This document shows, piece after piece, positions 2,706-21,637 of a stretch of 64,000 nt of DNA. Within the stretch, counting starts at the first letter, position 1. Every line of letters begins with the position of its first letter. This DNA comes from Caldicellulosiruptor danielii (GTDB lineage Bacteria > Bacillota > Thermoanaerobacteria > Caldicellulosiruptorales > Caldicellulosiruptoraceae), in NCBI RefSeq assembly GCF_034343125.1, contig NZ_CP139957.1:2226001-2290000 (forward strand), read 5' to 3'. The notes under the pieces are model-generated. The model did no database searches, was not told where the DNA came from, and saw nothing but the letters and a program-made list of their open reading frames with translations. Position numbers and translations under genes: made by a program.

Positions 2706-2710
2706 ATTCT

Positions 2711-4360: not shown

Positions 4361-5572
4361 TCATTCCACGAACATCTTAAATCTATTATAGTTTATCAAA
4401 TCAAAAGGCTCAGTCTTCTTGGTCCATGGCACTCCCATCTCGGAAAATAGCTTTTTGTTTTCAGCTGCTTCATCTATAATTTCTTTTATGTCTCTGATAT
4501 ACGTATATATTTTTCCATTTTCATTGCTAATCTCTAAATATTCATCTGGAATACCATAAACACCCCCTGACGATTCGAAAGCTCCATTTGAGGCCAATAC
4601 AAAATTGCGCGTTATTTCCAGTGGACAGTAAAGCTGTTTTCCTTCAAACAGATGCTCTACCATATTGATGTACATATTTACAAACAAATCTTCACGCCCA
4701 CCATCAAATTCTTCTGCAGAGCCATCAATATATTCTATTTTAAACCTATTTGCAAATGTCCAATAGGCCTTTGCTTTTTCAGCTTCTATCATGATATAGG
4801 GTGGCTCTTCTTCCCTGTTACACAGCGTTGAATAAAAATAGACCTCAATTCCCGTTTTTGTTATAATTCTCACACACGCTGTATCTTCCCCTTCAATCTT
4901 GTGCCCATGATAAATTTCTGCAGTAACTTTCTGAGGCACACCCCCATTTTCTTCTGAGGTCTCAGCAATAATTAGTTCATTGTTCAAAAGATGTGCAAGA
5001 GGATTGTTTATTGTTCCATCCAAGACATAGTTGCCATCAACAATTAACTTACCAGCCCATGCGTTTCTTTGATAATAGCTTTCATCCCTTTTCCAACGTC
5101 CAACACCAACAATTGATTTTATTTTACCAAGTCTGCCTTCTTTTATATACTCAAGCAGTCTTCTAAATGCTTTACCAGATGTATTTTGAAAGTTCACACT
5201 ACAAACCCTATTTGTTTTTTTCTTTGTCTCAATTATAGCGTCAATATCTTGAATTGTCACAGCAGGCGGCTTTTCAAGCAGAACATTAAAACCTCTTTCC
5301 ATTGCATCAATTGCCATTGGAGCATGTAAATGAATTGGCGTTGAGATGGCAACAAAATCTAAGTCTTTGTGGTTTTCAAGCATTGATCTATAATCCTGAT
5401 AATACTTAACACCTCGAGAAGTCAATCTATCTATCACTTCTTTATTCTTTTCATAGCTTGTTGCAACAATCGCTTTTAGGTCAACCATCTTCCCTTGTAG
5501 CTGTTCTATTGACCGCAAGTGTATACTTCCAAACCCACTAATTCCAATAAGACCAACCTTTGCAATGTTCAA
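4361..5572 (-). CDS. Gfo/Idh/MocA-family NAD(P)-dependent oxidoreductase
   Basis: A 403-residue cytoplasmic dehydrogenase of the glucose-fructose oxidoreductase / inositol dehydrogenase family. The N-terminal Rossmann fold shows the nucleotide loop GLIGISGFGSIH near residue 10, and the family EKP motif appears as LLEKPPAVT near residue 97. The C-terminal half is the usual beta-sheet substrate domain. It is the last gene of the cluster that begins with the binding protein at 12945 and sits 26 bases after the zinc dehydrogenase, so it probably oxidises or epimerises a sugar, uronate or cyclitol taken up by that transporter. The substrate cannot be read from sequence. A degraded insertion sequence lies directly downstream. 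Confidence 0.8.
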   Translation of the reverse strand: MNIAKVGLIGISGFGSIHLRSIEQLQGKMVDLKAIVATSYEKNKEVIDRLTSRGVKYYQDYRSMLENHKDLDFVAISTPIHLHAPMAIDAMERGFNVLLEKPPAVTIQDIDAIIETKKKTNRVCSVNFQNTSGKAFRRLLEYIKEGRLGKIKSIVGVGRWKRDESYYQRNAWAGKLIVDGNYVLDGTINNPLAHLLNNELIIAETSEENGGVPQKVTAEIYHGHKIEGEDTACVRIITKTGIEVYFYSTLCNREEEPPYIMIEAEKAKAYWTFANRFKIEYIDGSAEEFDGGREDLFVNMYINMVEHLFEGKQLYCPLEITRNFVLASNGAFESSGGVYGIPDEYLEISNENGKIYTYIRDIKEIIDEAAENKKLFSEMGVPWTKKTEPFDLINYNRFKMFVE

Positions 5573-5598
5573 AACTGTACGCCCCCTTTTGATTTATA

Positions 5599-6687
5599 TC
5601 AAGGCTTTAGAACAGATTTTATTGTATTTCTGTTTTCCATATCCTCAAGAGCTTTTGTCGCATCAGTCAACTTATAAATATTTGTAACCATTTTTTTGAA
5701 AAGTTCTTTATTTTGCAACACCACATTAACTGCCATATTCAAGTGTTTTGTATCGCTGACCCATACCCCTTGATATCTTAAGTTTTTCCTCACAATGTCA
5801 TAATAACAGTCAAGTGTAACACTGCCATTTGGGTCACCAAAACCAAGCGAAAGATAGCTGCCACCGTTTCGAACAAGCTTTATTCCTTCACTTACTGCTG
5901 ATGGATGACCCACAGCTTCAATTGCCAAATCAACTCCACGCCCATTTGTGATATCCATTATTATCTCCTGTCTTTGGCCAGCTGTAGTAGAATTTCTATC
6001 AAGCACATGCGTTGCACCAAATTCTTCACACATCTTAAGTCTTTCCTTGGTGCCACCAATCACAATTATATTTTTTACCCCTTTGAGCTTTGCAAAGATG
6101 ATTGCATAAAGCCCTATCGGACCTGGCCCTTGAATTAGGACACTGTCACCAAAATCAGGTGAGACAATGTCAAAAGCATGAGCACACGTTGCACCAGAAC
6201 ATGAGGCAGAGACTAAAATTTCTGGATCAACATTCTCTTTTATTTTTATAACTTTTGTATCTTTGTGAAGATAGATGTACTCTGAATAGCAGCCCCTCAA
6301 ATATGGTGGCTCTGCACAGCTAACACTTATACCATATGTCCACCTGTGCGGGCACAAGTAAGGTTCTTTTTTGACAGCACAAAAATAACACTTTCCACAC
6401 GTTACACCTCTATCCCAGATTATCAAATCTCCCTCTTTTATCCTTTCACCATTCACGTCAAACCAGCAACCAGAAATTGCATATACACGTCCAACACCTT
6501 CATGCCCTAAAATCATTGGAAGTTTTGTACGCGGGTCATTACCTCTGAACATATGCACATCAGAACCACAAACGCCTGCTGCTTCTATCTTTACTAAAAG
6601 CTCACCGTCAGTTGGAGCTGTTAACTCAAACTCCTTTGCTTTTAAAGGTTTGTTAAATTCTTCTAATACCATCGCATAAGCTTTCAT
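5599..6687 (-). CDS. Zinc-dependent medium-chain alcohol/polyol dehydrogenase
   Basis: A 362-residue MDR-superfamily dehydrogenase. Catalytic zinc ligands are visible as VCGSDVH (Cys, about residue 40) and GHEGVG (His-Glu, about 62). The structural zinc loop has its four cysteines in CGKCYFCAVKKEPYLC. The NAD site is GPGPIGLYA in the C-terminal Rossmann domain. Family members oxidise sorbitol, threonine, sugar alcohols or acyloins. Its ATG overlaps the TGA of the flavoprotein gene by 4 bases (ATGA), so the two are translationally coupled and very likely part of one pathway. It could equally be a threonine- or sorbitol-dehydrogenase-like enzyme; the specificity is open. Confidence 0.85.
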   Translation of the reverse strand: MKAYAMVLEEFNKPLKAKEFELTAPTDGELLVKIEAAGVCGSDVHMFRGNDPRTKLPMILGHEGVGRVYAISGCWFDVNGERIKEGDLIIWDRGVTCGKCYFCAVKKEPYLCPHRWTYGISVSCAEPPYLRGCYSEYIYLHKDTKVIKIKENVDPEILVSASCSGATCAHAFDIVSPDFGDSVLIQGPGPIGLYAIIFAKLKGVKNIIVIGGTKERLKMCEEFGATHVLDRNSTTAGQRQEIIMDITNGRGVDLAIEAVGHPSAVSEGIKLVRNGGSYLSLGFGDPNGSVTLDCYYDIVRKNLRYQGVWVSDTKHLNMAVNVVLQNKELFKKMVTNIYKLTDATKALEDMENRNTIKSVLKP

Positions 6688-8489
6688 CTTTGTGTTCCTC
6701 CTAAGGTTTCAGGGCTTACCGGTTGCATTGGAAAAACTTCAATTTGATTTGCCTCTTTATTTAGTCTGCACACATGGTATACATTGTACCTTTCATTTCT
6801 TGGTTTGGGCCACAAATCGCTTAAATTTTCGAACATCAAGTGTGGACCTCTGCTCTCATCTCTTAACATGTAGCTCTTTACCACCGCTTCTGCACACAGA
6901 AGCATATTTTTGTATTCCAAAAGGTATTCATACTCAACGGGTTTAATGTTTCTTGTCTTTAATTCTTCGATTTTTGTAAGCGCTTTTTTAAGTCCAGATT
7001 GATACCGTACAACACTTGCATACAAGTCCATAACATCATTTAGCTCCGAGATGGCTTTTTCTAAATCAATGCCATCTGCAGCTACATAGCTTTTATAGCT
7101 TTCAAACAAATTATTTGCCTGGCAAACTGCAGCCTCTTCATCGATTGAATTACTCAAAGCAAATTCAAAGCTGCTCTCCCCCGCTATTTTGCCAAACACC
7201 TGAGTATCCAAAAGTGCATTTCCACCTGGTCTGTTTGCTCCATGCTGTCCGCCTGCACACTCGCCACAGGCAAATAAACCTTGAACAATTGTATTTGCTT
7301 TTTCTCTAATTTTTACACCACCTTGAAAATGCTGAATTGACGGAGCAATTTCTAACATTTGTGTTTTGAGGTCAATTCCCCTTTTCAAAAACCACTCAAC
7401 TGTCTGTGGATTTATTTCGCAAAGTCTTTCATATGGAGTTTTTCTACTCCCAACCTGATTTTTGACCTCTTTATAATACCTTTGTCTTAAATCCTCTCTT
7501 AGATGTTCAAACTCAAATCCTTTAGGATTTTGAGTAAAGTCCAAAAACACCTTTCCACCCCGTGCAATTTCTCTGAACACTGCAATGTCTATCAGACACG
7601 TCTTGTGCTCGTAGCTTATCGGCCAAGTTGCACCTTTTTCAAATACATCATTGTATGTGATAGGATAGTTTAATAAAAACTCTTCACATTTTTCATTTAC
7701 AAACCTGGGGACACATCTCATTATACTTCCTGAACAAGCAAGCTTTGTTTGAGGTGATGAAAGACCTATCTGGATAAACTCCATATTTACAAGCTGTGCT
7801 CCTGCACGAAGCGCCATTGCATAACCATCACCTGTCATACGCGGCGGAAAGACATTGCTTTTATAAATACTTCCTGCACCGCCTGTCGCCAAAACAACTG
7901 CTTTTGCAAGTATTATAATATTTTGATTTCCTTTAAAACCAATTGCTCCACAAATTCTGTTATTCATGACAATCAAATCAGCTATCATCACGTCTTCTAA
8001 AACTTCAATATCCTTAATTTCACCAAGCTTTCGAATCAAAGCCCTCTCTATTTGAACAGCCGTATCAGGTCCTGTATAACATGCACGCGCATATATAGAG
8101 CCGTCTGTGACAAATTGAGCTGGTATGCCATTTTCTTTTACAAAGGGAACACCAAGATTATCTAAATAAAAATAAGCATCAGCAGAGTTTTTTGCTAAAA
8201 TCTCAGCCAAGTCATAATCAGAAACAAATCCGCCAATCTCATAGATATCCTTTGCATGGTACTTCCAGTTATCTTCACCCTGGGGCTCTGTAGTAGGTAA
8301 CGTCACATGAAATGCCATTCTATCAGAATATGCCAAAGCTGTTGTACCACAGCCACCCAACCTTCCTTTTACTGCAAGTATCACTTTCACATTTTTTTTA
8401 CTCTCATAAGCTTTTTCACATGCCGCAATGGCAGCTCTTAAACCTGCCCCACCGCCGCCCACGACTAAAATGTCAGCTTTGTAAATCAT
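6684..8489 (-). CDS. FAD-dependent fumarate-reductase / L-aspartate-oxidase-like flavoprotein
   Basis: A 601-residue flavoprotein of the succinate dehydrogenase/fumarate reductase A family. It shows the FAD dinucleotide loop VVGGGGAGLRAAIAA at residues 9-23, VVLATGGAGSIY near 200, and the conserved capping/FAD segment HGANRPGGNALLD near 425. The helical C-terminal domain of the family follows. The HTxAAQGG-type covalent-FAD histidine motif of respiratory fumarate reductases is not seen, and no FrdB or membrane anchor is present nearby, so a soluble role is likely. Its neighbours are a PreA-like FMN/iron-sulfur protein upstream (3-base gap) and a zinc dehydrogenase downstream (4-base overlap). 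It may reduce or oxidise a C-C bond in a sugar-derived acid; that is inference. Confidence 0.8.
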   Translation of the reverse strand: MIYKADILVVGGGGAGLRAAIAACEKAYESKKNVKVILAVKGRLGGCGTTALAYSDRMAFHVTLPTTEPQGEDNWKYHAKDIYEIGGFVSDYDLAEILAKNSADAYFYLDNLGVPFVKENGIPAQFVTDGSIYARACYTGPDTAVQIERALIRKLGEIKDIEVLEDVMIADLIVMNNRICGAIGFKGNQNIIILAKAVVLATGGAGSIYKSNVFPPRMTGDGYAMALRAGAQLVNMEFIQIGLSSPQTKLACSGSIMRCVPRFVNEKCEEFLLNYPITYNDVFEKGATWPISYEHKTCLIDIAVFREIARGGKVFLDFTQNPKGFEFEHLREDLRQRYYKEVKNQVGSRKTPYERLCEINPQTVEWFLKRGIDLKTQMLEIAPSIQHFQGGVKIREKANTIVQGLFACGECAGGQHGANRPGGNALLDTQVFGKIAGESSFEFALSNSIDEEAAVCQANNLFESYKSYVAADGIDLEKAISELNDVMDLYASVVRYQSGLKKALTKIEELKTRNIKPVEYEYLLEYKNMLLCAEAVVKSYMLRDESRGPHLMFENLSDLWPKPRNERYNVYHVCRLNKEANQIEVFPMQPVSPETLGGTQR

Positions 8490-8492
8490 CCT

Positions 8493-9638
8493 TTATTCTT
8501 CTCCTCTCCTTACCATTGAAATTGCCTTGACTGGGCAAAGCTCTGCACACAGTCCACAGCCATCACAATTTTGATTTACTTTAAATTTTCCATCATCCTT
8601 TTTAATTGCATCATATATGCAAACTGTGAAGCACTTGCCGCATCCTGTGCATTTGTCTTTGTCAATCCTTGCAACTGCCCAGTGTGTTCTGTCAACAGAT
8701 TCCATGTCAAGAATTTTGCTACATACTTTTCCTTTAAAATCATCAATTGTGTTGTATCCTTTTCTCTCCATGTACTCTTCTAAATACTTGTTTATCTTGT
8801 TTATAACCCCATAGCCGTTTATAATTACAGTTGTACATACCTGCACAGCCGAAGCCCCAGCTAATATGTATTTGACAACATCTTCACCGTTCATAGCTCC
8901 ACCACTTGCGCTGATACTACACTTTACTTTTGGCGAAACTGCACTTATCCATCTCAAACCATACATAATCGCCCACGGACCGCCATGCCCTGCATACCCG
9001 CCGTGCAAAATTGGTGCTTCTTTTTCTATATCAATGTCAAGCCCAGTAAATCTATTAAACATAACAAGCCCATCTGCTCCTGCTTGATCAAGTCTTAAGG
9101 CATCAGACCCGGGATTTGTAGATTGAGGAGTCATTTTTGGTATCACGGGTATTTTTACATTGTTTTTAACAAGCTTTGTTGTGCGAACCATCTCTTCTAT
9201 AACATCCATTCCAGACATTATATGAACCCCATGCGGGCAAGATAGATTTAGCTCTATCGCATCAGCCCCCGCCTGCTCCATAAGTTTACTATATTCAAGC
9301 CAAGCATCATCTGTATAGCAGTTTATACTTGCAATGACAGGAATGCTCAGTTTTTGTTTTGCTTTGAATATAAATTCAGCATACTCTTGTGGATTTAATT
9401 CACTTGCCTGTTCATATGAGTAAAGCGTAAATGTGTTTTCATGCTTGACTATTTTAAACCTTGGAGTAGGTGCAATTCTGCACACTTCCTTTTGAAAAAG
9501 ACTCTTTGTCACAACAGCACCAGCACCGTTTTCTTCGCATCTTTGAAGCCTCTCCACAGTCCCTGTTATTCCTGCAGATGCGACAATTACGGGTGATCTT
9601 AGTCTTAGTTTACTATATGTAACTGATAAGTCTGGCAT
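8493..9638 (-). CDS. PreA-like FMN / 2x[4Fe-4S] dihydroorotate-dehydrogenase-family protein
   Basis: A 381-residue protein with an FMN-binding TIM barrel like class 1 dihydroorotate dehydrogenase and the PreA subunit of dihydropyrimidine dehydrogenase. It has ELNLSCPHG near residue 150, and a C-terminal ferredoxin domain with two clusters, CTGCGKCFTVC and CDGCGLCAELCP, from about residue 330. The start at 9638 follows AGGAGA. PreA normally pairs with PreT for pyrimidine reduction, but no pyrimidine gene is nearby. Here it is joined to a fumarate-reductase-like flavoprotein, suggesting the ferredoxin domain passes electrons between the flavins of the two proteins. The name PreA would overstate what is known. 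Confidence 0.75.
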   Translation of the reverse strand: MPDLSVTYSKLRLRSPVIVASAGITGTVERLQRCEENGAGAVVTKSLFQKEVCRIAPTPRFKIVKHENTFTLYSYEQASELNPQEYAEFIFKAKQKLSIPVIASINCYTDDAWLEYSKLMEQAGADAIELNLSCPHGVHIMSGMDVIEEMVRTTKLVKNNVKIPVIPKMTPQSTNPGSDALRLDQAGADGLVMFNRFTGLDIDIEKEAPILHGGYAGHGGPWAIMYGLRWISAVSPKVKCSISASGGAMNGEDVVKYILAGASAVQVCTTVIINGYGVINKINKYLEEYMERKGYNTIDDFKGKVCSKILDMESVDRTHWAVARIDKDKCTGCGKCFTVCIYDAIKKDDGKFKVNQNCDGCGLCAELCPVKAISMVRRGEE

Positions 9639-9763
9639 TGTTATCTCTCCTTTTGAAAAATTTTTGAAAAACCAACAATTAGGTTACTGCTTACAACACT
9701 AAAATCACCATTAAAAAGTAGAAGTGTACCCTTTTCGTTTCCATATATTTCTTATACTTTTTT

Positions 9764-10606
9764 TTAACCTTTTAACCCTGTAGTAACAATTCCTTCAACT
9801 AGATAACGTTGGAAGAATATAAATATTATAAACGAAGGAACAAGTGATAAAGTAGCCATAGCAAATGCTGCTCCCCAATTTGATACTGCTGTCGGATCAG
9901 AAAACATCCTCAAACCCAAAGAAACAGTATATAGCTCTGGTTTGCTGAGATAAAGCAAAGGTCCTAAAAAGTCATCCCATCGCCATAAAAATGAAAATAT
10001 TGCTGATGTAATTAAAGCAGGTGAAATCAATGGCAAAATAATTCTGGTAAAAATAGAATATTTACTGCAACCATCTATCTTTGCTGCTTCATCTAATTCA
10101 TTAGGAATACCTCTTATGAATTGAATCATTAAAAATATAAAAAACGGTTGACCCAAAAAGGCTGGAACAAGTAGCGGTTTAAACGTATTTACCCACCCTA
10201 ATTTTTGAAACATAATATATTGAGGAATCATAACTACCTGATATGGCAAAAGCATGGTTAAAATCATACATCCGAACCAAAATCCTTTACCTTTGAATTT
10301 ACATCTTGCAAAACCATATGCAACAATGGCTGAAGAAATTACAGCACCAATTGTCCCAATCACAGTCACAATAAATGAATTTTTAAAAAAAACTGAGAAT
10401 GGATATCCTGCAAAACCTTTCCACCCATCAACATAATTTTTAAAGAGCCATCTCTTAGGTAATAACTCATGAGCATTTAAGAAAATTTCACTATTATCCT
10501 TAAATGAGCTAAAAAACATCCAGAGAAGAGGATAAAGCATTATGTACCCAAATAAAAGTGTTATGAGATGAAATAGAAACGTTCTTATCACCCTTGCTCT
10601 TCTCAT
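9764..10606 (-). CDS. Carbohydrate ABC transporter permease (MalG-like, CUT1)
   Basis: A 280-residue inner-membrane permease with about six hydrophobic segments. The EAA loop that docks the ATPase is seen as LDEAAKIDGCSKYSIF followed by ILPLISP, near residues 180-200. It is the second permease of the binding protein-permease-permease set at 9764-12945 and lies 2 bases after its partner. No ATPase gene is present, as is common for CUT1 systems that share one MsmK-type ATPase. The downstream redox genes suggest that the imported compound is their substrate or precursor. Confidence 0.9.
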   Translation of the reverse strand: MRRARVIRTFLFHLITLLFGYIMLYPLLWMFFSSFKDNSEIFLNAHELLPKRWLFKNYVDGWKGFAGYPFSVFFKNSFIVTVIGTIGAVISSAIVAYGFARCKFKGKGFWFGCMILTMLLPYQVVMIPQYIMFQKLGWVNTFKPLLVPAFLGQPFFIFLMIQFIRGIPNELDEAAKIDGCSKYSIFTRIILPLISPALITSAIFSFLWRWDDFLGPLLYLSKPELYTVSLGLRMFSDPTAVSNWGAAFAMATLSLVPSFIIFIFFQRYLVEGIVTTGLKG

Positions 10607-10608
10607 TA

Positions 10609-11544
10609 TTACTCACCTTCTTTCGATTCATAATAGACCCAAAATGTAGAAGACTTAAATATTAAAGCTGTGAGTATTCCTATGATAATAAGCATCACCC
10701 ATGACATCGCACAGCTGTAACCCATATCATAGAACTGAAATGCTCGTCTGTAAAGATAAATAGCATAAAAAAGTGTACTATTTACAGGTCCTCCGTTGGT
10801 AATAATAAATCCTTGAGTAAAAGTCATAAAACTACCTATCATCTGCATTATCAAGTTGAAAAATATTATCGGTGTAAGCATTGGTAAAGTTATCTTAATG
10901 AACTTTTGCCAACTATTTGCTCCATCAATAATAGCTGCTTCGTAATAGCTTTCAGGTATTTGCTTTAAACCTGCCAAAAATATTAACATAGGTGAACCAA
11001 ATTGCCAAACTGCAAGCAATATCAATGTCCAGATTGCAGTTTTTGGATTCCCTATCCATGAAATATTTGAATCGATTCCAAGCAATTTTAATATAGAATT
11101 TATAACGCCATCACTTGTAAATAGCCTTTGCCAAAGCACAGCAACTGCAACACTTCCTCCCATCATTGATGGGATATAATATACAGCTCTGTAAAAAGGA
11201 GTTAATTTGCTTTTATAAGATAGCCAAAGCGCAAGAAGTAAAGCAAAAGCTAATTTCAATGGAACTGTTACAAATACATAGAAAAATGTCACTGACATTG
11301 ATTCCCAAAATAAAGGATCTTCCTTGAACATTTGAATATAATTTCTTAAACCAACAAATTTAGGCGGTGATAATAAATCATATTGAGTAAATGAAAGGTA
11401 AAATGTAGCCACAATTGGAATCAAGGTAAATACAAAAAAACCTACCAGCCATGGTAAAATAAAAACATACCCTGCTATATTTTCAGAATTTATAATCCTA
11501 TCAACCCTACTTTGCAAAGATATTTTATAGGTTACTTTTGACAT
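10609..11544 (-). CDS. Carbohydrate ABC transporter permease (MalF-like, CUT1)
   Basis: The first permease of the transporter, about 311 residues, with a hydrophobic N-terminal helix (VFILPWLVGFFVFTLIPIV) and the EAA loop YEAAIIDGANSWQKF followed by ITLPMLTP. I chose ATG 11544 (MSKVTYKISL), which follows AAGGAGG by 12 bases, over a longer frame reaching 11595 that would overlap the hairpin in front of the gene. It forms a heterodimeric channel with the MalG-like partner immediately downstream. Confidence 0.88.
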   Translation of the reverse strand: MSKVTYKISLQSRVDRIINSENIAGYVFILPWLVGFFVFTLIPIVATFYLSFTQYDLLSPPKFVGLRNYIQMFKEDPLFWESMSVTFFYVFVTVPLKLAFALLLALWLSYKSKLTPFYRAVYYIPSMMGGSVAVAVLWQRLFTSDGVINSILKLLGIDSNISWIGNPKTAIWTLILLAVWQFGSPMLIFLAGLKQIPESYYEAAIIDGANSWQKFIKITLPMLTPIIFFNLIMQMIGSFMTFTQGFIITNGGPVNSTLFYAIYLYRRAFQFYDMGYSCAMSWVMLIIIGILTALIFKSSTFWVYYESKEGE

Positions 11545-11580
11545 TAAAATATTTCGCCTCCTTATATACAGGAATTTAAA

Positions 11581-11615
11581 CGAGGGGCTGTCCACCCTTC
11601 CTGGATAGCCCCTCG
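11581..11615 (-). terminator. Strong hairpin between the binding-protein gene and its permeases
   Basis: CGAGGGGCTGTCCA pairs with TGGATAGCCCCTCG around a 7-base loop. On the coding (minus) strand only a short TTTAAATT follows, so it is more likely a partial terminator or 3' end stabiliser, as is known for malE-type operons, than a full stop. The plus strand has a T6 run after it. Confidence 0.7.
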
Positions 11616-11640
11616 TTTTTTAAATGACTCTGTTTTCTTA

Positions 11641-12945
11641 CTATTTTTTATTTCTCATAAGTATTTGGTTTGCCTTTTGTATAAACATCTTGGCAGCTAC
11701 TTCCGGCTTTATCTGTCCATACAAGACTTGATCATACAAATCTTTAAATAGCTGACCAACTTCAGTTCCTCCTGGTGGATCGGGTGGATCAATAGGTGAG
11801 CAATTTTTCTCAGCAAGAGCTATATAGTCAAATGTCTGTCTTACTGCTGGTTCTACTGCATTTTTAATACCTTCTCTAACTTTAGATGAAATAGGTACGC
11901 CTCGCTCTGCTAACAAGATTTTGTTTGCCTCTACACTATTCGTAAAGAAATTTATAACTTTTGCTGCTTCATTTTTATATTTTGATGTTGCTGCAACAGA
12001 GAAAAATTGAGACGGTTTTAAATACAATCCTGGCCTTTTCCCACCCTTAGGAGGTAATGCTAACGCCAATGGTCTTTTTGCTGCGTTTGCTGTTGCAACA
12101 AACATATTACTCCAAGTCCAGCCAATCCATGTCTTCCCTTTAACAAATAAACTGTCCTCAATTGTAGAAGTTGCTGAAACTTCATCTGGTCTTGCTGTAT
12201 ATCCACCTTTTAAGAGTTCCAAATTGATATTAAATACATCAACAATAAATTTTTCTTGAGTAAATCCTAAACTTGTCCCATCGGGCTTATATAAGCTCTT
12301 ACCTTGCTGCCTTACATAGTATTCAAGTAGGAATTTTGGATCAGCTGTTAATGCCAAGTCTGCTCTAATTTTGGTTTTTTGATAAACTTTTTTAATAATC
12401 TCCTTGTAGTCATTCCAACTCCAGTTGCCATCTTCAGGTATCTTCACACCCGCTTTTTTAGCCACAGTAGGGTCATAAATAATTGCCAAAGCGTTAGTTC
12501 CTAAACTTATAGCATAAATCTTTCCACCGATTGATCCACTTTTTATACTTGCATCACTTACATCTTTCAAATTCAATATTCCATTTTTCGTATGAGGTGT
12601 CAAATCTGCTAATAAACCTTTTTGAACATATTGAGCTAAATACATGTAGTCCATCTGAATAATGTCAGGCAAATTCTTCGCTGCTGCTTGAGTTGTAAGT
12701 TTATCCCAGTATCCAGACCAGCTACCAAATTCAGTGACAAAACTTACCTTACGATTAACTTTTGCTCGATATAATTCAAGCACTTTTTGAGTCCTGTCAT
12801 GACGTGTTTGGCTCCCCCACCAAGCAATCCTCAATTTTATTGACTGAGAAGACCCAAGAGCAGTTTGTGAAGTCTTTATCTGAGTGGTTAAAACGCATGA
12901 AAGCAAAAACAAAACAGCAAAGAGAATTGACAAAAACTTTTTCAC
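11641..12945 (-). CDS. Extracellular sugar-binding lipoprotein (SBP family 1) of a CUT1 ABC transporter
   Basis: A 434-residue solute-binding protein. A GTG start at 12945 follows GGGAGGG. Residues 1-30 form a signal peptide with a possible lipobox LLSC near residue 16 (Leu at -2 is not ideal), so it is probably membrane-anchored outside the cell. Family text includes LRIAWWGSQTRHDRTQKVLE at the mature N terminus and DIIQMDYMYLAQYVQKGLLA. It starts the operon of two permeases and four redox enzymes and is driven by the promoter at 13255-13283. The ligand is not readable; pectin-derived oligosaccharides are likely from context. Confidence 0.88.
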   Translation of the reverse strand: MKKFLSILFAVLFLLSCVLTTQIKTSQTALGSSQSIKLRIAWWGSQTRHDRTQKVLELYRAKVNRKVSFVTEFGSWSGYWDKLTTQAAAKNLPDIIQMDYMYLAQYVQKGLLADLTPHTKNGILNLKDVSDASIKSGSIGGKIYAISLGTNALAIIYDPTVAKKAGVKIPEDGNWSWNDYKEIIKKVYQKTKIRADLALTADPKFLLEYYVRQQGKSLYKPDGTSLGFTQEKFIVDVFNINLELLKGGYTARPDEVSATSTIEDSLFVKGKTWIGWTWSNMFVATANAAKRPLALALPPKGGKRPGLYLKPSQFFSVAATSKYKNEAAKVINFFTNSVEANKILLAERGVPISSKVREGIKNAVEPAVRQTFDYIALAEKNCSPIDPPDPPGGTEVGQLFKDLYDQVLYGQIKPEVAAKMFIQKANQILMRNKK

Positions 12946-13380: not shown

Positions 13381-15168
13381 TCATTTATTTTCTTTCATAC
13401 TTTCCCATCTTTTCTTTAGTAAAAATGCTGCCATTTTGGGCTGTCTTTGCCTTGTAAAGATTCCTTTTCTGTTGCCCATAATCCTTCGAACCTCTTGTTT
13501 TGTCGCAAAGTCCGCAAAGTTCCATATGTGTTCGCCTATTACAAAATTCAGCCTGTCAAACACCCTATGATACCTCTCAAGCATCTCACATTGATACTCC
13601 TCAGAAAACATCATGGGCGGACTTGAATGAAATCCTGCTATTGTATCTGCCCCATACTCTGTTACTATTACTGGTTTTTGATAAAGTTCAAACCACCTTT
13701 TCAGTTCCTTTTCAAGCTGGAACTCTATCAAATCCAGTCTGCCAGGATCAGAATACCATGAATAGTACCTGTTTACACATATAACATCAACAAGGCCTGC
13801 TACTTTTGTCTCATCTGGAAATGAAGATTCAACCAATGTCACTGGTCTTGTTTTATCAAGCTTTCTTACCTCGTTTATTACTCTTTTGAAATATTCATAT
13901 GCACCATCTTCATATGTCGCAGCCTCATTTGCTACACTCCACATAATCACACATGGATGGTTTTTGTCTCTTGCAATAAGCCGTCTTATAACTTCTAAGT
14001 GATGTTCTAATGTGTTTTGGTTCACTCTTTCAGGGATAAACACTTTTTCATTTTTGTTAAAGAAATTCATGCCAACAGCTGGTGCCTCGTCAATTACCAA
14101 AAAACCATACTCGTCTGCCAAGTTTAAAATCTCTTCTGCATAAGGATAATGTGATGTTCTGAATGAATTTGCTCCTATCCACTTCAGAAGGTTGAAATCT
14201 TTCACAGCTATCACAGGGTCGTATCCCTTGCCCCTAATATCACTGTCTTCATGCTTTGCCAAGCCTTTAAGATACACTGGCTTACCATTTAGGTAAAGTC
14301 TTTTCCCTTTTACTTCAACAGTTCTTATTCCTACAGGAAGATAATATTCATCTATAGCTTTACCATCATGTACTAAAGTCACATTTAGTTTGTAAAGATA
14401 TGGATTTGAAGGCTCCCAAAATATTGCATTTTCAACCTTTATCATACCCTCTGGTCCTTCGACCTTGGCTATTTGTCCTCCATCTCTATTATATAAAGTT
14501 GCTTCTATTTGACATTCATTCTTCTTTTCACCATCTACTACCACCTTAAAGCAAACTATCCCCTTTTTGCCATCAATTTGTGTCTTCACTCTAATATCCT
14601 CAATATATGTTTTGGAAGTGGTGTAGAGCAAAACTGGTCTGTGAATACCTGAATAGTTGAAAAAGTCAAAAAGATACTCCTGAGTTTTATACCCATCTGG
14701 ATGCATTGAGTCTTTGTATTCCCTTATAAATCCTGGTGGAAGACAGCTCCAGTCCAAGATGTTGTTGACAACAATTGTAAGTCTATTCTCACAGCCAATT
14801 TGGGCAAATTTATTAATCTCAACTTCAAAAGGCAAAAACCCACCTTTGTTTTGAGCTATTTCCTTGCCATTTAAAAATAATTTTGCGTGATGAGTAGCAC
14901 TTCCAACTCTCAAAACTATTCTTTTGCCCTTCCAGCTCTCTGGTATGTAAAATGTCCTTTCATACCATACATCACCTATATGGTCTCTTATACTCTCATC
15001 TTGGGTTATGTCGTTATAGCTTGACGGCACAGGCATCAAAATAGCATCTTCAAGAGGTCTTTCAAACCACCTCTGTTCATATCCTTTGTTCTCTTTATCA
15101 ACCTTAAACCTCCATATGCCACAAAGGTCCTTTATCTCTCTTGTTCTTGTCTCACGTGGATAAAGCAT
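13381..15168 (-). CDS. Glycoside hydrolase family 2, beta-glucuronidase type
   Basis: A 595-residue GH2 enzyme without a signal peptide, so cytoplasmic. Domain order is jelly-roll (about 1-180), immunoglobulin-like (180-280), then TIM barrel. The acid/base glutamate sits in MWSVANEAAT near residue 410 and the nucleophile in VIVTEYGADT near 505; the barrel opens with HEDSDIRGKG, as in UidA-type beta-glucuronidases. The length matches UidA (about 600). It lies 171 bases after the exo-rhamnogalacturonan-lyase-like gene and would remove glucuronosyl or galactosyl ends from imported oligosaccharides. Beta-galacturonidase activity cannot be excluded. The start at 15168 follows AAGGGAGG. Confidence 0.85.
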   Translation of the reverse strand: MLYPRETRTREIKDLCGIWRFKVDKENKGYEQRWFERPLEDAILMPVPSSYNDITQDESIRDHIGDVWYERTFYIPESWKGKRIVLRVGSATHHAKLFLNGKEIAQNKGGFLPFEVEINKFAQIGCENRLTIVVNNILDWSCLPPGFIREYKDSMHPDGYKTQEYLFDFFNYSGIHRPVLLYTTSKTYIEDIRVKTQIDGKKGIVCFKVVVDGEKKNECQIEATLYNRDGGQIAKVEGPEGMIKVENAIFWEPSNPYLYKLNVTLVHDGKAIDEYYLPVGIRTVEVKGKRLYLNGKPVYLKGLAKHEDSDIRGKGYDPVIAVKDFNLLKWIGANSFRTSHYPYAEEILNLADEYGFLVIDEAPAVGMNFFNKNEKVFIPERVNQNTLEHHLEVIRRLIARDKNHPCVIMWSVANEAATYEDGAYEYFKRVINEVRKLDKTRPVTLVESSFPDETKVAGLVDVICVNRYYSWYSDPGRLDLIEFQLEKELKRWFELYQKPVIVTEYGADTIAGFHSSPPMMFSEEYQCEMLERYHRVFDRLNFVIGEHIWNFADFATKQEVRRIMGNRKGIFTRQRQPKMAAFLLKKRWESMKENK

Positions 15169-15339: not shown

Positions 15340-17937
15340 TCACATCTCATCTCCAATAAACTCAAGTGCAAGCATTGCATTTATCGACCACTGTGAAGCT
15401 ATGTTTGTTGAAATAAAAGGAACTTCAACAACAGGCGCAGGTACAGTTGCCAATTGTAAATTGATACCTCCATCACAAATAAATTTCAGCCAGGGATTTT
15501 TGTTATAGTCTAAAAACATCTGCCAGATTTCTCTTTTCAATTCAGGAATATTCTTCTTCATTGCTGCAAAGGCAGCCATCCCAATATTGAGCATATTCAA
15601 CTTAAATCCAAAGCTCGGAACGCCCCAACTTTTTAAAATCTCATCTTTGTTTTCTTTAAATTCGGTATAAAAAAGCCCCTGCTGAGCACACAATTCTTCC
15701 AATTCTTTATCTTCAAAATTCTTAGCTATTTCAAACCAAACAAGTGTATTTCCGAAACAAAATACAAAATTTGACCCCCCAGTATATTCAATAGGTTTTA
15801 ACTGGGTTTTTTCAGGGTCATAGTCAAATACACCGCCCGAAATAAATGCTGCTGGGTTTTTCTTTAAAAAATCCAGTATTTTTATTATCTTTTGTTTATA
15901 AATCTCTTCCTGGCACCTTTCCCATCTTACAAACCAGTTGGCACAAAAGGTCATAACATCTGGCCCAACTCTTATATGGACTCTATTTTCAGGATCAATT
16001 GTAAAATACGCACGCATAGGGTCCATATGCATAATTTGCTTGTCAACATCTTTTACATCATCCATGAGCTGTCCTATTCTTTCATCAGCGGTGAGATAAT
16101 AGTAATACCTGTGAAGGTATGCCATACTAATTCTCACTTCTTTGCAACCACATCCCCAATGAACAACATTGTGTCTTGAGCCCAGTCCTTTGTATTCTCC
16201 AAGGTGATACACGTCCACTTCTGATGTATGTCTTGTCATTGCCTCAGCCATTTTAAATATGTCAAAACGTCCTGTTCTTAAAAACATAAGCCAAAGCCAA
16301 ATATTTGGTACAAGCTCTGTGTTCTGCCAAGCATATCCACCAATATCATATTTCCACATGTGTCTTACTATATCATAGCTATGCATAAAATCACCATAGA
16401 CCCAAAAACCATACCACTTTCTTCTCTCAACTTCATTCAGATAAAAATCAACAATAGCTGTCAGTATTCTTTCAATCTTTTCTTTTTTAGGATTGCTATT
16501 ATCTGGTAAATTTAATCCTTCAAAAACCTTTGTTTCTTTATACCTTTCAGGGCCACATACAAGAAGAGGAGAAAACCCTTGCATTTTTGCATATTCCAAA
16601 AGCTGCTCGCTTGTCGGAGGATAATCAAAACAGTACAGCCACAGCTCGTTTGTATTAGCTATACCATACGGAGTACTTCTATACTCATCAAACCCTTCAT
16701 ATGAAGAAGATGTGTATGTACCAAAATCATAGTGTCTCAAATCCATAACTTCACCATAAGGTGGCCAAAGCCAAACTATTAAACTTGCTTCAGGAGAAGT
16801 TAAATCTTTTATCTCAAATCCTGAAGGATATTTTTGCCAAAAATCCTTTAAAGATACTGCAAGCCCACCATTCTCATCGCCAACATACGCAAACCCCATA
16901 GATCTTCTGCCTTCTGTTGCTTTTATAAAACTGCACTGGCAAGATGTACGTTTTTTAATAACATAGTGCTCGGAGGAATCTTGAAAAAGAACAAATTCAT
17001 CCCACTCTGGAGTATTGTTAATCTCCCTAATATAATGGTGGTCCTCGTCAATATCAAAATCTACCGGTTGTCCATTGACCTGATTTTGAAACATTGTTTT
17101 GTATCTCTCTTTTCGGTCTACATCTATCAAATTTTTTGGTGACTCACAAAAAAGTCCACTATCCCCACCAAATCTTACAAATCTATTGTACAGAGGAGAG
17201 TGCAAAGGAAGACTAAATTTTAAGCCCAATCCTTTTATAAAATCTTGGTGGGGATTTCCGTTGTAAATAAATGTGTGAACAAGTTTAATTTTATCTGCAT
17301 TTGCATAGAAATATAATCTCAACTCAAAAGGTAGCCATCCTTGTTGGAGCAAAGAACCGTCAAATGTCATCCTGGTATTCCGTAAATGTCTTCCCCACAC
17401 TTTTATAACACATCTCAAAGGTCCGTGAGAATCTACTTTTGCACCTAATATTTGTGGAATGTATTCTTCTTCAACTTTAGTCCTATATCCTGTAAAATTA
17501 GAAGTTTTTTCTGTAGTAAGAATTTGGGTGAAATTAGAGCAAATAATCTTTTGTCCTACTTTTAAATATTCAATAATCTTGTTTCCATTCTTATTTATTT
17601 TGCACTCAAGCTTGCCAGTTGTGATGTAAATATACTCTTTGTCTTCATAAACTTCAACCATTGTTTCGAATTTTGCTGCAGCAGTTTCTTCAATACATAC
17701 AAAGACCTCATCAGGTAAATTGGTACCAAAGAAAGCAGCATGTCCACTTACTTTTATTGAACCATCACCCCAGTAAGAAAGTGGCCAGTTTTGAGTTGGA
17801 ATAATACTTCCATCCTTGCTTCTTACAATAACATTTTCTATACTCCATAGCTGTGCTTTTTTCCATGGAATACAAAAGGTTGTACCAATATTGCCTACCT
17901 GCGGTTTTATAAGCCATTTTAGCTTTATTTCTTGCAT
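15340..17937 (-). CDS. YetA/PL26-like exo-rhamnogalacturonan lyase family protein
   Basis: An 865-residue protein without a signal peptide. Its size and text (LKWLIKPQVGNIGTTFCIPW at the N terminus, WPLSYWGDGSIKVSGHAAFF, a long central beta region and a helical C-terminal half) match what I know of Bacillus YetA and the PcRGLX exo-rhamnogalacturonan lyase fold. It follows an Lpl-type binding protein, and in B. subtilis yetA lies downstream of lplABCD, which supports the assignment. The likely role is exolytic cleavage of imported rhamnogalacturonan fragments. The family match is by recognition, and catalytic residues were not verified. A terminator-like hairpin precedes it, so expression may be lower than that of the binding protein. 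Confidence 0.65.
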   Translation of the reverse strand: MQEIKLKWLIKPQVGNIGTTFCIPWKKAQLWSIENVIVRSKDGSIIPTQNWPLSYWGDGSIKVSGHAAFFGTNLPDEVFVCIEETAAAKFETMVEVYEDKEYIYITTGKLECKINKNGNKIIEYLKVGQKIICSNFTQILTTEKTSNFTGYRTKVEEEYIPQILGAKVDSHGPLRCVIKVWGRHLRNTRMTFDGSLLQQGWLPFELRLYFYANADKIKLVHTFIYNGNPHQDFIKGLGLKFSLPLHSPLYNRFVRFGGDSGLFCESPKNLIDVDRKERYKTMFQNQVNGQPVDFDIDEDHHYIREINNTPEWDEFVLFQDSSEHYVIKKRTSCQCSFIKATEGRRSMGFAYVGDENGGLAVSLKDFWQKYPSGFEIKDLTSPEASLIVWLWPPYGEVMDLRHYDFGTYTSSSYEGFDEYRSTPYGIANTNELWLYCFDYPPTSEQLLEYAKMQGFSPLLVCGPERYKETKVFEGLNLPDNSNPKKEKIERILTAIVDFYLNEVERRKWYGFWVYGDFMHSYDIVRHMWKYDIGGYAWQNTELVPNIWLWLMFLRTGRFDIFKMAEAMTRHTSEVDVYHLGEYKGLGSRHNVVHWGCGCKEVRISMAYLHRYYYYLTADERIGQLMDDVKDVDKQIMHMDPMRAYFTIDPENRVHIRVGPDVMTFCANWFVRWERCQEEIYKQKIIKILDFLKKNPAAFISGGVFDYDPEKTQLKPIEYTGGSNFVFCFGNTLVWFEIAKNFEDKELEELCAQQGLFYTEFKENKDEILKSWGVPSFGFKLNMLNIGMAAFAAMKKNIPELKREIWQMFLDYNKNPWLKFICDGGINLQLATVPAPVVEVPFISTNIASQWSINAMLALEFIGDEM

Positions 17938-18042: not shown

Positions 18043-19608
18043 TTAGTTGAGAATCTTATACAAGTCATCCTTATATGGAATATTCTTTTTATACTTGCGA
18101 TATAACGCATTTACTTCTTTTATGATCTGATCTCCACCCTGTTTTCTCCAGTTGTCAAGAACTTTCTTGAATCCCTGGTCGTTGAGCTGACCAGTAATAT
18201 ACTTAACTCGTGCATCCTCAATCATATTATCAAGTGTGACACCGCGTTTGATATAGGTATCTGACATACCTATCAACGCTTCTGCTGGGTTTGGAACAAG
18301 AATATTGAGTTTTTCATTCAAAGCTTGCATATCTGCTTGCAACTGTAAAAGCGGAGTCATATATCTTGGTGTTCCACCGTTTGCAGGATAAAAATGCAAA
18401 ACTTGGTTGAGTCCACTTATTTCCCTTGACAAATCTGCTGGCAAGTTTGGAATAGGATCTATTTTACCATCTACAAGCTTATAGTGTCTGTTTGGCAGTC
18501 CATAACCAAACAAGTCCTGCATTGTTCTGTCGCCAAACTTATCTAATATCGACATTACTTTCTTGAATGTATTCATGTCTTTTACACTTGTTTTTGAAAC
18601 CATCAGATACCCCGCATAACCAGAAGTCGGTAAATTTCTTAGACCATATTTACCTTTTACAGACACAACAATGTCCATTATATCTGTATCCTTTGCATCT
18701 TTTGGGATGATACCATTGTTCTTGAGGCCATTGTAAATTCTGTTTGCAGAGTCTATAACGTCAATCTTTACTCCGCCTTTACCCTGTGAGTAATAATCTT
18801 CCCATCTTGCACCTGGAACACTTGGGAAGTCATGGTTAAACAGCTTTTCTTGATACATCTTTCTCCAGAATTTCAAATTTTCAAGATATGCATTTGTTAA
18901 GAAAGATGGCACTAACTGTCCGTTTTTGTTCAAACCCCATCCATTAGGTCCACCAAACCATGTGAGAGTTATATAGAATGGTCCATTGTAGTTGCAAACA
19001 ATCATTCCATATGTGTCATTCTTTCCATCTTTATCTGGATCATTGTAGGTAAACTTCTTTAACATGTTGTACAAATCATCAATTGTTTCAAGTTTAGTGA
19101 TGCCAACATTTTTAGCCCAGTCTTTTCTGTATACAATTCCATTTCTTCCTAAGGTTCTTGAACGTGGAATACCATAAATTTTACCCTCAATAGAAGAGTT
19201 CCAAAGAACTATATCCGGAATTGCTTTCAAATTCTTATATTGCTTTATATACGGTCCAAGTTCCCAGAACGCTCCTGCCTTGCAAGCACCAATTATAGAT
19301 GCAGTTTTCCCTGGTACATAAACCACCATTGGAAGATTTCCGCTTGCTAACATAATGTTTAATTTGTCATTGTAACCATCTGCAGGTACCCATGTAAATT
19401 CAAGGTCGGTTTTTAAGTACTGTTCAGCTTTTAAGATAACAGGACTATTTGAGGGTGCTGGCTCTGTACCAAAATACTGAGCCATGATTGTAAGTTTAAA
19501 TGAATATTTTGATTTTGAAGCGCCCAAAACCCCTATTGATGTTAACAACAAACCTACTATACAAATGCTAACTACAAATAACCTCAAAACCTTCTTTGTT
19601 TTACTCAT
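18043..19608 (-). CDS. LplA-like extracellular solute-binding protein
   Basis: A 521-residue binding protein with a signal peptide (KVLRLFVVSICIVGLLLTSIG, cleavage probably near residue 30; no cysteine, so not an obvious lipoprotein). The family-type segment FTWVPADGYNDKLNIMLASG follows at about residue 75 and YYSQGKGGVKIDVID lies in the middle. LplA-type proteins are longer than classic sugar-binding proteins, as here. Together with the LplB- and LplC-like permeases upstream it forms a CUT1 importer. Known Lpl systems relate to pectin/rhamnogalacturonan oligosaccharides. The start at 19608 follows GGGAGGG. Confidence 0.82.
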   Translation of the reverse strand: MSKTKKVLRLFVVSICIVGLLLTSIGVLGASKSKYSFKLTIMAQYFGTEPAPSNSPVILKAEQYLKTDLEFTWVPADGYNDKLNIMLASGNLPMVVYVPGKTASIIGACKAGAFWELGPYIKQYKNLKAIPDIVLWNSSIEGKIYGIPRSRTLGRNGIVYRKDWAKNVGITKLETIDDLYNMLKKFTYNDPDKDGKNDTYGMIVCNYNGPFYITLTWFGGPNGWGLNKNGQLVPSFLTNAYLENLKFWRKMYQEKLFNHDFPSVPGARWEDYYSQGKGGVKIDVIDSANRIYNGLKNNGIIPKDAKDTDIMDIVVSVKGKYGLRNLPTSGYAGYLMVSKTSVKDMNTFKKVMSILDKFGDRTMQDLFGYGLPNRHYKLVDGKIDPIPNLPADLSREISGLNQVLHFYPANGGTPRYMTPLLQLQADMQALNEKLNILVPNPAEALIGMSDTYIKRGVTLDNMIEDARVKYITGQLNDQGFKKVLDNWRKQGGDQIIKEVNALYRKYKKNIPYKDDLYKILN

Positions 19609-19696
19609 AAAAGTATTCCCTCCCGCTTTTCGTTTTTGAAAAATAAATTTTTTAATTATTTACCCGTTAAATAGTATCTCATTTTACATCTTCACA

Positions 19697-20584
19697 TCAC
19701 TCCTTCAACGAACCGATGAACATTCCCTTTATGAAGTACTTTTGAAGCCATGGATACAAAAGCATTATCGGCAAAGTAGCCACAACTATTATCGCCATTT
19801 TTAGCGACTCCTGTGGGGGTTGGAAATTAGGATCAAATTGTGTTAAGTCTGAAGCAAGTGTGGTTGACAGCATTACTATTTGCCTCAAAATTAGCTGCAC
19901 AGGCCATTTCTCAGCATCGTTTATATACAAAAGCGCTCCAAACCATGAATTCCAATGCCCTACTCCATAGAAAAGTGCAAACGTAGCGATTATTGGTTTT
20001 GAAAGAGGAAGTATTATTTTCCACAATACCTGAGCTTCTGTACAACCGTCAATTCTCGCAGCATCTTCTAAATCTTGAGGCATTTCCTGGAAAAAGTTTT
20101 TGACAACAAAGAAGTTAAAGGGGCTAATTGCACCTGGCAGCCATAGTGCCCAATAAGAATTTAATAGACCCAAGCTTTTTACCAGCAAATATGTAGGAAT
20201 CATTCCTCCACCAAAAAGCATTGTAAATATTACACCATTTAAGACAATGCTTCTGCCTATAAAGTGCTTCTTTGAGAGAGCATATGCCATTGTAAATGTG
20301 AAAAACAGATTTACCAATGTACCTCCTACCGTGATAATCACACTGTTGAGCATACTGCGAAGAAAATAGTTTGAAGCAAAAATAAATTTATAAGTAAGAA
20401 GAGTAGGATTATGAGGAATTATAAAGAATGTTCTGGTTTTTATTTCCGAATCTGGCGCAAACGATGCAGCCAAAACGTATAGGAAAGGTAAAACGGTTAT
20501 TATTGCCCATATTCCAAGGAATACATGATTAAAAACGTCAAAAATTGTACTTGCTACTGTCTTATTTTGTTTCATTTTTGCCAC
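19697..20584 (-). CDS. LplC-like ABC transporter permease
   Basis: A 295-residue permease with six predicted membrane segments and the EAA loop LEDAARIDGCTEAQVLW followed by IILPLSKP near residues 185-205. The ending MFIGSLKE is typical of LplC/YtcP-type permeases. It is located 23 bases after the LplB-like partner. The pair imports oligosaccharides delivered by the binding protein downstream; no ATPase gene is present in the window. Confidence 0.88.
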   Translation of the reverse strand: MAKMKQNKTVASTIFDVFNHVFLGIWAIITVLPFLYVLAASFAPDSEIKTRTFFIIPHNPTLLTYKFIFASNYFLRSMLNSVIITVGGTLVNLFFTFTMAYALSKKHFIGRSIVLNGVIFTMLFGGGMIPTYLLVKSLGLLNSYWALWLPGAISPFNFFVVKNFFQEMPQDLEDAARIDGCTEAQVLWKIILPLSKPIIATFALFYGVGHWNSWFGALLYINDAEKWPVQLILRQIVMLSTTLASDLTQFDPNFQPPQESLKMAIIVVATLPIMLLYPWLQKYFIKGMFIGSLKE

Positions 20585-20607
20585 CCCACAAATTCTCGAA
20601 ATAAAGA

Positions 20608-21522
20608 TTAGAACAGTGAAGTTTCAGTAAATTTCTTAGACAGATAGTTCGAAACCTGAATTAAAATCAATCCAACAACAGATTTAAAAAGACCAACTGC
20701 TGTACTGTAACTGTACGCTCCTTGGGTTACACCCACCTGATAAACATACGTGTCAAATACTTCTGCCACCGACCTGTTAATAGGATTTTTCATTAAAAAT
20801 ATCTGCTCAAAACCTGTATCAAGAAGATGCCCCAATCTCAAAATGAAAAGTATGATTACCGTACTCATAATTGAAGGAATAGTGATGTGCCACGTCTGCT
20901 GCCACCTTGTTGCCCCATCCACAATAGCAGCCTCGTATAAAGTTGGGTCAACATTTGATAGTGCTGCCAAGAAAATTATTGTTCCCCATCCTGCTTCTTT
21001 CCATATACTCTGAATTATTATAAGTGGTCTGAACCATCTTGGATCTGTCAAAAATTCAATCTTTTTACCTGTTAGGCTATACAGAATATTGTTTATAACC
21101 CCAGTCTCACTTGAGAGGAGGACGTATGTAATACTTGCTATTACCACCATTGAAACAAAGTGAGGAACATAAACACATGTCTGAACAATTCTCTTATAAA
21201 CCTGATTTCTCACTTCGTTGATTAGAAGTGCCAAAATAATTGGCACAGGGAAATAGAAAAGTAAATTGTAAAACGAAATTAACAGTGTATTTCTAAACAG
21301 CATCGGAAAATCAGGGTCGGTGAAAAGTGTTTTAAAATGCTCAAAACCTACCCACGGACTTTTCCAGAACCCCAAAAACGGATTAAAGTCTTGAAAGGCA
21401 ACTACTATACCAAACATTGGAATGTACCTAAAAATGATGAAGTACAAAATACCCGGTAAAGCCAAGATATACAACCATTTGTCTTTTTTCAGTCTTTTCC
21501 ATATTGAAGTGGTAGCAGTCAT
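20608..21522 (-). CDS. LplB-like ABC transporter permease
   Basis: A 304-residue permease with LplB-type text, YILALPGILYFIIFRYIPMF and GIVVAFQDFNPFLG, and the EAA loop YEAAIVDGATRWQQTW. I chose ATG 21522 (MTATTSIWK) because GGGAGA precedes it, whereas the longer frame to 21576 would need a TTG start. It is the first gene after the shared-type promoter at 21638-21666, giving a leader of about 110 bases. Confidence 0.88.
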   Translation of the reverse strand: MTATTSIWKRLKKDKWLYILALPGILYFIIFRYIPMFGIVVAFQDFNPFLGFWKSPWVGFEHFKTLFTDPDFPMLFRNTLLISFYNLLFYFPVPIILALLINEVRNQVYKRIVQTCVYVPHFVSMVVIASITYVLLSSETGVINNILYSLTGKKIEFLTDPRWFRPLIIIQSIWKEAGWGTIIFLAALSNVDPTLYEAAIVDGATRWQQTWHITIPSIMSTVIILFILRLGHLLDTGFEQIFLMKNPINRSVAEVFDTYVYQVGVTQGAYSYSTAVGLFKSVVGLILIQVSNYLSKKFTETSLF

Positions 21523-21637
21523 TAAAGTGTTCTCTCCCTTCTTTTTTGATCCCTTGAGAATATTGTTTTTCGTCAAATTTTAATTATTTTTGTCGGTATT
21601 ATTATTGAGATTTGAGTCTTGTTTTTGGTTTGATTTT

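Follow-up and report, generated by a model that had tools for sequence, protein, structure and literature searches.

Hexuronates lose one oxygen and gain two electrons on their way to 2-keto-3-deoxygluconate (KDG), classically by isomerisation, reduction and dehydration. C=C bonds that adjoin a carbonyl or carboxylate are the usual target of two flavoprotein families, one typified by the flavin mononucleotide (FMN) protein PreA and the other by the flavin adenine dinucleotide (FAD) protein FrdA of fumarate reductase. In dihydropyrimidine dehydrogenase (DPD) FAD and FMN are joined by iron-sulfur (Fe-S) clusters, an arrangement that is our model for the relay proposed below. Here we analyse a stretch of 64,000 nucleotides from the heat-loving plant degrader Caldicellulosiruptor danielii (contig NZ_CP139957.1, positions 2,226,001 to 2,290,000; the window) in which genes for a PreA-like protein (preA), an FrdA-like protein (frdA), a zinc-dependent dehydrogenase (znADH) and a Gfo/Idh/MocA oxidoreductase (gfo) form a real, conserved and apparently undescribed enzyme module.

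The known routes from hexuronates to KDG use an isomerase, an NAD-linked reductase and a dehydratase (PMC6353982), and neither 'FAD' nor 'ferredoxin' has a match in that review. The galacturonate steps after UxaC are missing in Caldicellulosiruptor (Rodionov et al. 2021, PMC8579813), in a paper whose main text has no match for 'fumarate' or 'dihydroorotate'. Open-access full text on methylglucuronate demethylation and on flavoprotein uronate enzymes held nothing on this gene set, and the view of a first-pass annotation of the window, that no described pathway contains it, holds for the open-access full text searched.

The block makes up the last four genes, in transcription order, of a run of seven open reading frames (ORFs), all on the minus strand, at 4361-12945 of the window (the genome, 2.82 Mb, is a single contig). 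Proteins were named with Pfam and NCBIfam.

4361..5572, minus strand: Gfo/Idh/MocA oxidoreductase (gfo), final gene of the enzyme block (PF01408, 6.8e-21; syntenic orthologues 60-93%)
5599..6687, minus strand: zinc-dependent medium-chain dehydrogenase (znADH; PF08240/PF00107)
6684..8489, minus strand: FrdA-like FAD protein (frdA) with most fumarate reductase catalytic residues gone (PF00890, PF02910; aligned to E. coli FrdA and NadB)
8493..9638, minus strand: PreA-like FMN protein (preA) with C-terminal 2x[4Fe-4S], opening the enzyme block (PF01180 + Fer4)
9639..9763, minus strand: 125-base gap between transporter and enzyme genes (seven upstream regions aligned; unconserved where the transporter is not upstream)
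9764..10606, minus strand: CUT1-type permease, a neighbour and no conserved member (PF00528; position varies)
10609..11595, minus strand: CUT1-type permease, likewise a neighbour and no conserved member (PF00528; position varies)
11641..12945, minus strand: solute-binding protein, also a neighbour and no conserved member (PF13416; position varies)

The ORFs, coordinates and family names of the first-pass annotation agree with the ORF calls and with both databases, and, as it had said, neither PreT nor FrdB is encoded among the seven (for PreT the search was limited to this run). In transcription order the junctions measure 45, 2, 125, 3, -4 and 26 bases; the tight ones that it described (2, 3 and -4) and the 125-base gap were recovered, but two of the six are looser than its wording implied. 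Promoter-like matches in the region were at chance level (51 found, 50.1 expected).

Gene neighbourhoods were compared across 12 genomes of the genus in 20-kb stretches (G-numbers denote genomes compared, G000 being that of the window, and L-numbers loci compared). The order and strand of preA-frdA-znADH-gfo are kept in 7/12 genus genomes and also in G016, G020 (two copies), G029, where preA is split between two frames, and G031; three block genes are kept in G021, where the contig ends before gfo. Six other genus members encode FrdA-like orthologues of 87-91% identity; in a second family the identity is about 70% (three genomes, G020 having two copies) and in a third about 62% (two genomes). 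The four enzymes are thus one conserved unit, and their association exceeds chance. Scattering of their genes in close relatives, set beforehand as the observation that would contradict a common pathway, did not occur, all seven genomes keeping the order.

The transporter behaves differently. Genes for a solute-binding protein and two permeases sit directly upstream of preA in only 3/7 genus genomes with the block (that of the window, G001 and G004), lie downstream of gfo in G007, and were not found inside the 20-kb stretch in G002, G003 and G009. At distant frdA loci the transporters are of TRAP, Liv, CUT2, TTT and CUT1 types (read from ORFs, except the TRAP proteins of L137). Because transporter types vary across loci and placement shifts within the genus, the transporter is a neighbour and not a defining part of the enzyme unit. 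The sequences upstream of preA at the seven genus loci fall into two unrelated classes that track transporter placement, which weakens the idea of a single transcript. That the seven genes are one operon importing its own sugar or cyclitol, as first proposed, agrees with their common strand and small gaps and with the lack of any reported terminator-like site in the 125 bases before preA; we nevertheless consider it very unlikely and reject it on synteny and on the preA upstream comparison, since the transporter lies elsewhere or not within 20 kb in 4/7 genus genomes, the sequence before preA is not conserved, and distant loci carry TRAP, Liv, CUT2 or other transporters. Membership of the CUT1 transporter in the pathway is therefore unsupported, and of the expectation that other genomes would hold the four enzymes beside such a transporter, the joint occurrence of the enzymes stands while the constant neighbour does not.

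The stretch before preA contains a short inverted repeat, AAGGAGTGG...CCACTCCTT, at the four loci without the transporter upstream (L022, where the repeat is perfect, L025, L026 and L027); the repeat is possibly a terminator or a regulatory hairpin.

Beyond the genus, a profile of the FrdA-like protein was run against 398 Bacillota genomes and found 19 genomes outside the class of the window at E <1e-60. A znADH orthologue (46-60%) adjoins frdA in most of the strong distant matches, and frdA and znADH are the most widely conserved pair of the block. The third member beside them is either a PreA-like protein (the window type, also at L072, L075 and L081) or an FMN/Fe-S protein of the old yellow enzyme (OYE) family, about 450 residues long with invariant Cys at 412, 415, 418 and 430. 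The two were found together in no compared frdA locus. Genomes of the PreA type have no OYE orthologue (best score 115 bits, versus 590-862 in OYE-type genomes), and OYE-type genomes gave no PreA-like match at 1e-90. In the FrdA tree the PreA-type G366 groups with the OYE-type G208 and with G404, which has neither partner (support 1.0), which argues for a partner swap between close relatives. A scan of genome contigs gave a single, irrelevant relative, and tblastn against plasmids returned only distant FrdA or PreA relatives, among them a Cetobacterium PreA relative that neighbours purine/pyrimidine genes.

The neighbours of distant frdA genes point to KDG. The gene for 2-keto-3-deoxy-6-phosphogluconate (KDPG) aldolase (PF01081), present in 1-2 copies per genome, lies within 15 kb of frdA in 7/13 genera (G031, G068, G132, G148, G208, G366, G404 and G407) and is the sole copy in 5/8 cases. 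If each is given an assumed chance of 1.5-3%, the binomial test gives P = 3e-10 to 3e-8, a value that is overstated as the genera are related. KDG kinase usually accompanies the aldolase there, L066 has UxaA- and UxaB-like genes, and L068 and L136 have IlvD-type dehydratases. In G420 the genes form a compact cluster, kdgK-eda-frdA-znADH-cupin-DctM-DctQ-DctP-LacI-OYE, in which the cupin beside znADH scores 50 bits with a dimethylsulfoniopropionate (DMSP) lyase cupin model (cut-off 27) and might carry out the elimination at that locus; in the window no cupin adjoins the block. Other FrdA-like genes, distant or related, have CoA-transferase, MaoC or crotonase, FAH-family and SDR genes as neighbours (L034, L067, L080 and L082), a hint that FrdA-like enzymes of sugar acids may form a wider family.

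The active sites set both flavoproteins apart from their namesakes. The FrdA-like protein has the FAD_binding_2 + Succ_DH_flav_C fold of FrdA, SdhA and NadB. Aligned with E. coli FrdA and NadB, its family retains the Arg of HGANR but has lost the covalent-FAD His, the His of QYHPT, the Arg of GPRD and the His of HYTMGG; among H232, R287, H355 and R390 of FrdA (literature numbering) R390 alone is kept. The best NCBIfam score is 325 against a cut-off of 718, no FrdB, FrdC or FrdD accompanies the protein, and the FrdB domain PF13085 was found in 0/12 genus genomes (control positive in 11/14 genomes). With the covalent-FAD His and three of the four catalytic residues lost, the protein is unlikely to act as a fumarate reductase.

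The PreA-like protein is closer to its model but scores below the PreA cut-off (224 versus 335 bits). It has all the parts expected, a dihydroorotate dehydrogenase-like FMN barrel, the catalytic Cys and 2x[4Fe-4S], and the Cys of NLSCPH (Cys134) and all eight cluster Cys are invariant in its family. It thus shares with PreTA and mammalian DPD the FMN TIM barrel, the NxSCP Cys and the C-terminal 2x[4Fe-4S], whereas its FAD partner here would be FrdA-like, the run has no PreT and no pyrimidine genes are nearby. The INT of E. coli PreA is FNR in this family, with an invariant Arg, so that the Asn-Thr of the pyrimidine site becomes Asn-Arg; judged from the alignment, this Arg may meet an acidic substrate. 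AlphaFold2 models of the FrdA-like and PreA-like proteins had a mean predicted local distance difference test score (pLDDT) of 55 and 45, respectively, and were not used.

Our preferred reading, held tentatively and with somewhat more doubt than confidence, is that the four enzymes make up a module of anaerobic catabolism in which a sugar acid resembling a uronic acid, derived in this genus from the rhamnogalacturonan-I (RG-I) of pectin, is converted towards KDG. KDG as the product, the FMN and FAD proteins as one electron-transfer unit, the step order and the substrate are what we infer. An NAD-linked dehydrogenase (the zinc enzyme or the Gfo/Idh protein) would produce a keto sugar acid, and the FMN protein and the FrdA-like protein would then act as a pair on C=C bonds adjoining a carboxylate or carbonyl. 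Electrons would pass between FMN and FAD through the [4Fe-4S] clusters of the FMN protein, which would replace FrdB and PreT; it is the partner exchange that suggests a single FAD/Fe-S/FMN complex of the FrdA-like and PreA-like proteins. The net result would be loss of a substituent plus reduction to a 2-keto-3-deoxy acid, after which KDG kinase and KDPG aldolase would split KDG. Since a dehydrogenase is present together with two flavoprotein families of the C=C type, such an oxidation-elimination-reduction route is plausible. It would share with the Uxa/Uxu isomerase and Kdu pathways the kind of substrate and the likely end point (KDG and KDPG aldolase). The closest chemical analogy is BaiCD of bile-acid 7-dehydroxylation, an OYE-family FMN/Fe-S protein that acts after alcohol oxidation in a reductive dehydroxylation; its substrates are unrelated, and it is the distant OYE-type partner (80 bits, cut-off 825), not the PreA-like protein of the window, that resembles it.

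Several observations weigh against this reading. The one KDPG aldolase gene in the genome of the window is about 310 kb from the block, so the link to KDG is there by analogy only. Outside the class of the window, frdA is frame-split at two (G366 and G068) of three PreA-type loci, and these swap cases therefore need care. G391 has a PreA-like gene without frdA, and L097:4895-7459, L098:8596-11148 and L099:5854-8448 encode fusions of 850-865 residues that combine a close PreA-like barrel with an NAD(P)H/FAD half resembling PreT and with 4Fe-4S domains, like DPD in their parts but in another order; such fusions show that members of the PreA subfamily need not go with FrdA. Finally, G404 and G194 have frdA and znADH with neither FMN partner, and the FMN protein may thus be dispensable. 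The same two genomes would suit an explanation in which the flavoproteins are separate enzymes with separate substrates, or a ferredoxin-linked redox valve accompanying uronate or rhamnose breakdown (taking, for example, electrons from rhamnose-derived lactaldehyde), as would L030 in G020, where rhaB-rhaA-rhaM-aldolase precedes the block and a uronate isomerase gene is close by. We regard this as unlikely, for frdA clusters use one or the other of two Fe-S/FMN partners, and at most distant loci no neighbouring genes for rhamnose catabolism were recognised.

In the genus, the block belongs to an RG-I island. Linked rhamnogalacturonan lyases, a rhamnogalacturonan transporter and rhamnosidase-family genes are all present in the window, whose exo-lyase and ABC transporter are of the same kind as RglX and RglFGH, the rhamnogalacturonide exo-lyase and transporter of C. 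bescii (Rodionov et al. 2021, PMC8579813):

2..802, minus strand: PL11 rhamnogalacturonan lyase, N-terminal part, running off the window start (PF18370, PF21348)
13381..15168, minus strand: GH2 beta-glucuronidase (NF007538, 840 bits, cut-off 544)
15340..17937, minus strand: PcRGLX-type rhamnogalacturonan exo-lyase, PL26-like (PF21345, PF21346, PF19501), in exactly the 7 block genomes
18043..21576, minus strand: solute-binding protein and two permeases, RglFGH counterpart by position and neighbour (PMC8579813)
23036..25570, minus strand: GH106-family (alpha-L-rhamnosidase) protein (PF17132)

The same 7/12 genus genomes contain the block, a GH106-like protein of 1042 residues and the PL26-type exo-lyase, and the same 5 lack all three, a co-occurrence that is linkage in one region, which may move together, and not 12 independent observations. 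The GH106-like protein was rejected as a marker of the block: over the 398 genomes it is often present without it, and the link is local. In G001 a PL11 lyase gene with S-layer domains directly follows gfo, and G003 and G009 have an ORF of similar length and start there. Transposase fragments (DUF772 and others) lie at 1210-3318 of the window, between gfo and the PL11 gene, and the downstream side of the island is therefore broken by insertions in this strain. The conserved GH106-like gene of the strain lies outside the window (G000:C1:2216603-2219731) and has one in-frame TGA; intact elsewhere, it may be a pseudogene here. In G003 and G007 (L022:4677-6664 and L025:13726-15713) the same two-gene insertion, probably an IS21-like element, breaks the beta-glucuronidase gene at different points.

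The linked lyases and beta-glucuronidase, together with the KDG kinase, KDPG aldolase and UxaA/UxaB-like genes of relatives, bear out a sugar-acid setting. With linked genes of these kinds cyclitols are not favoured, and scores far below the cut-offs of the IolG and IolM models also speak against the cyclitol reading. The idea of a single pathway thus survives in part, for a conserved four-enzyme unit in a sugar-acid setting, while its transporter and cyclitol elements lack support.

Genes of the MtaA/CmuA methyltransferase type share a locus with znADH and frdA, mostly adjoining znADH, in L065, L066, L069, L070 and L078, and these five loci leave open a methylated substrate. In that case 4-O-methylglucuronate from side chains of RG-I or arabinogalactan would be oxidised, demethylated or relieved of methanol, and reduced, to enter the normal hexuronate route. 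The beta-glucuronidase gene upstream of the block in 6/7 genus loci would fit as well. We judge this quite unlikely: no methyltransferase gene adjoins the block in the window or the genus, no corrinoid protein was recognised in the methyltransferase-bearing loci, and the explanation is unneeded for lyase-linked loci.

Returning to the sugar-acid module, its boldest form is a hitherto undescribed pathway for hexuronates (or O-methyl-hexuronates). There a FAD-[4Fe-4S]-FMN electron relay would remove a hydroxyl or methoxyl group reductively and give KDG without the classical isomerase, reductase and dehydratase, and two unrelated FMN/Fe-S proteins would be interchangeable in the relay; this we hold to be unlikely. 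Uronic acids are major plant-wall sugars, and the block is a testable candidate for part of the galacturonate gap after UxaC, or for the use of an unusual uronate such as 4-O-methylglucuronate. That PreA-like and OYE-type proteins replace each other alongside one FrdA-like protein would add a new case of partner swapping among flavoproteins.

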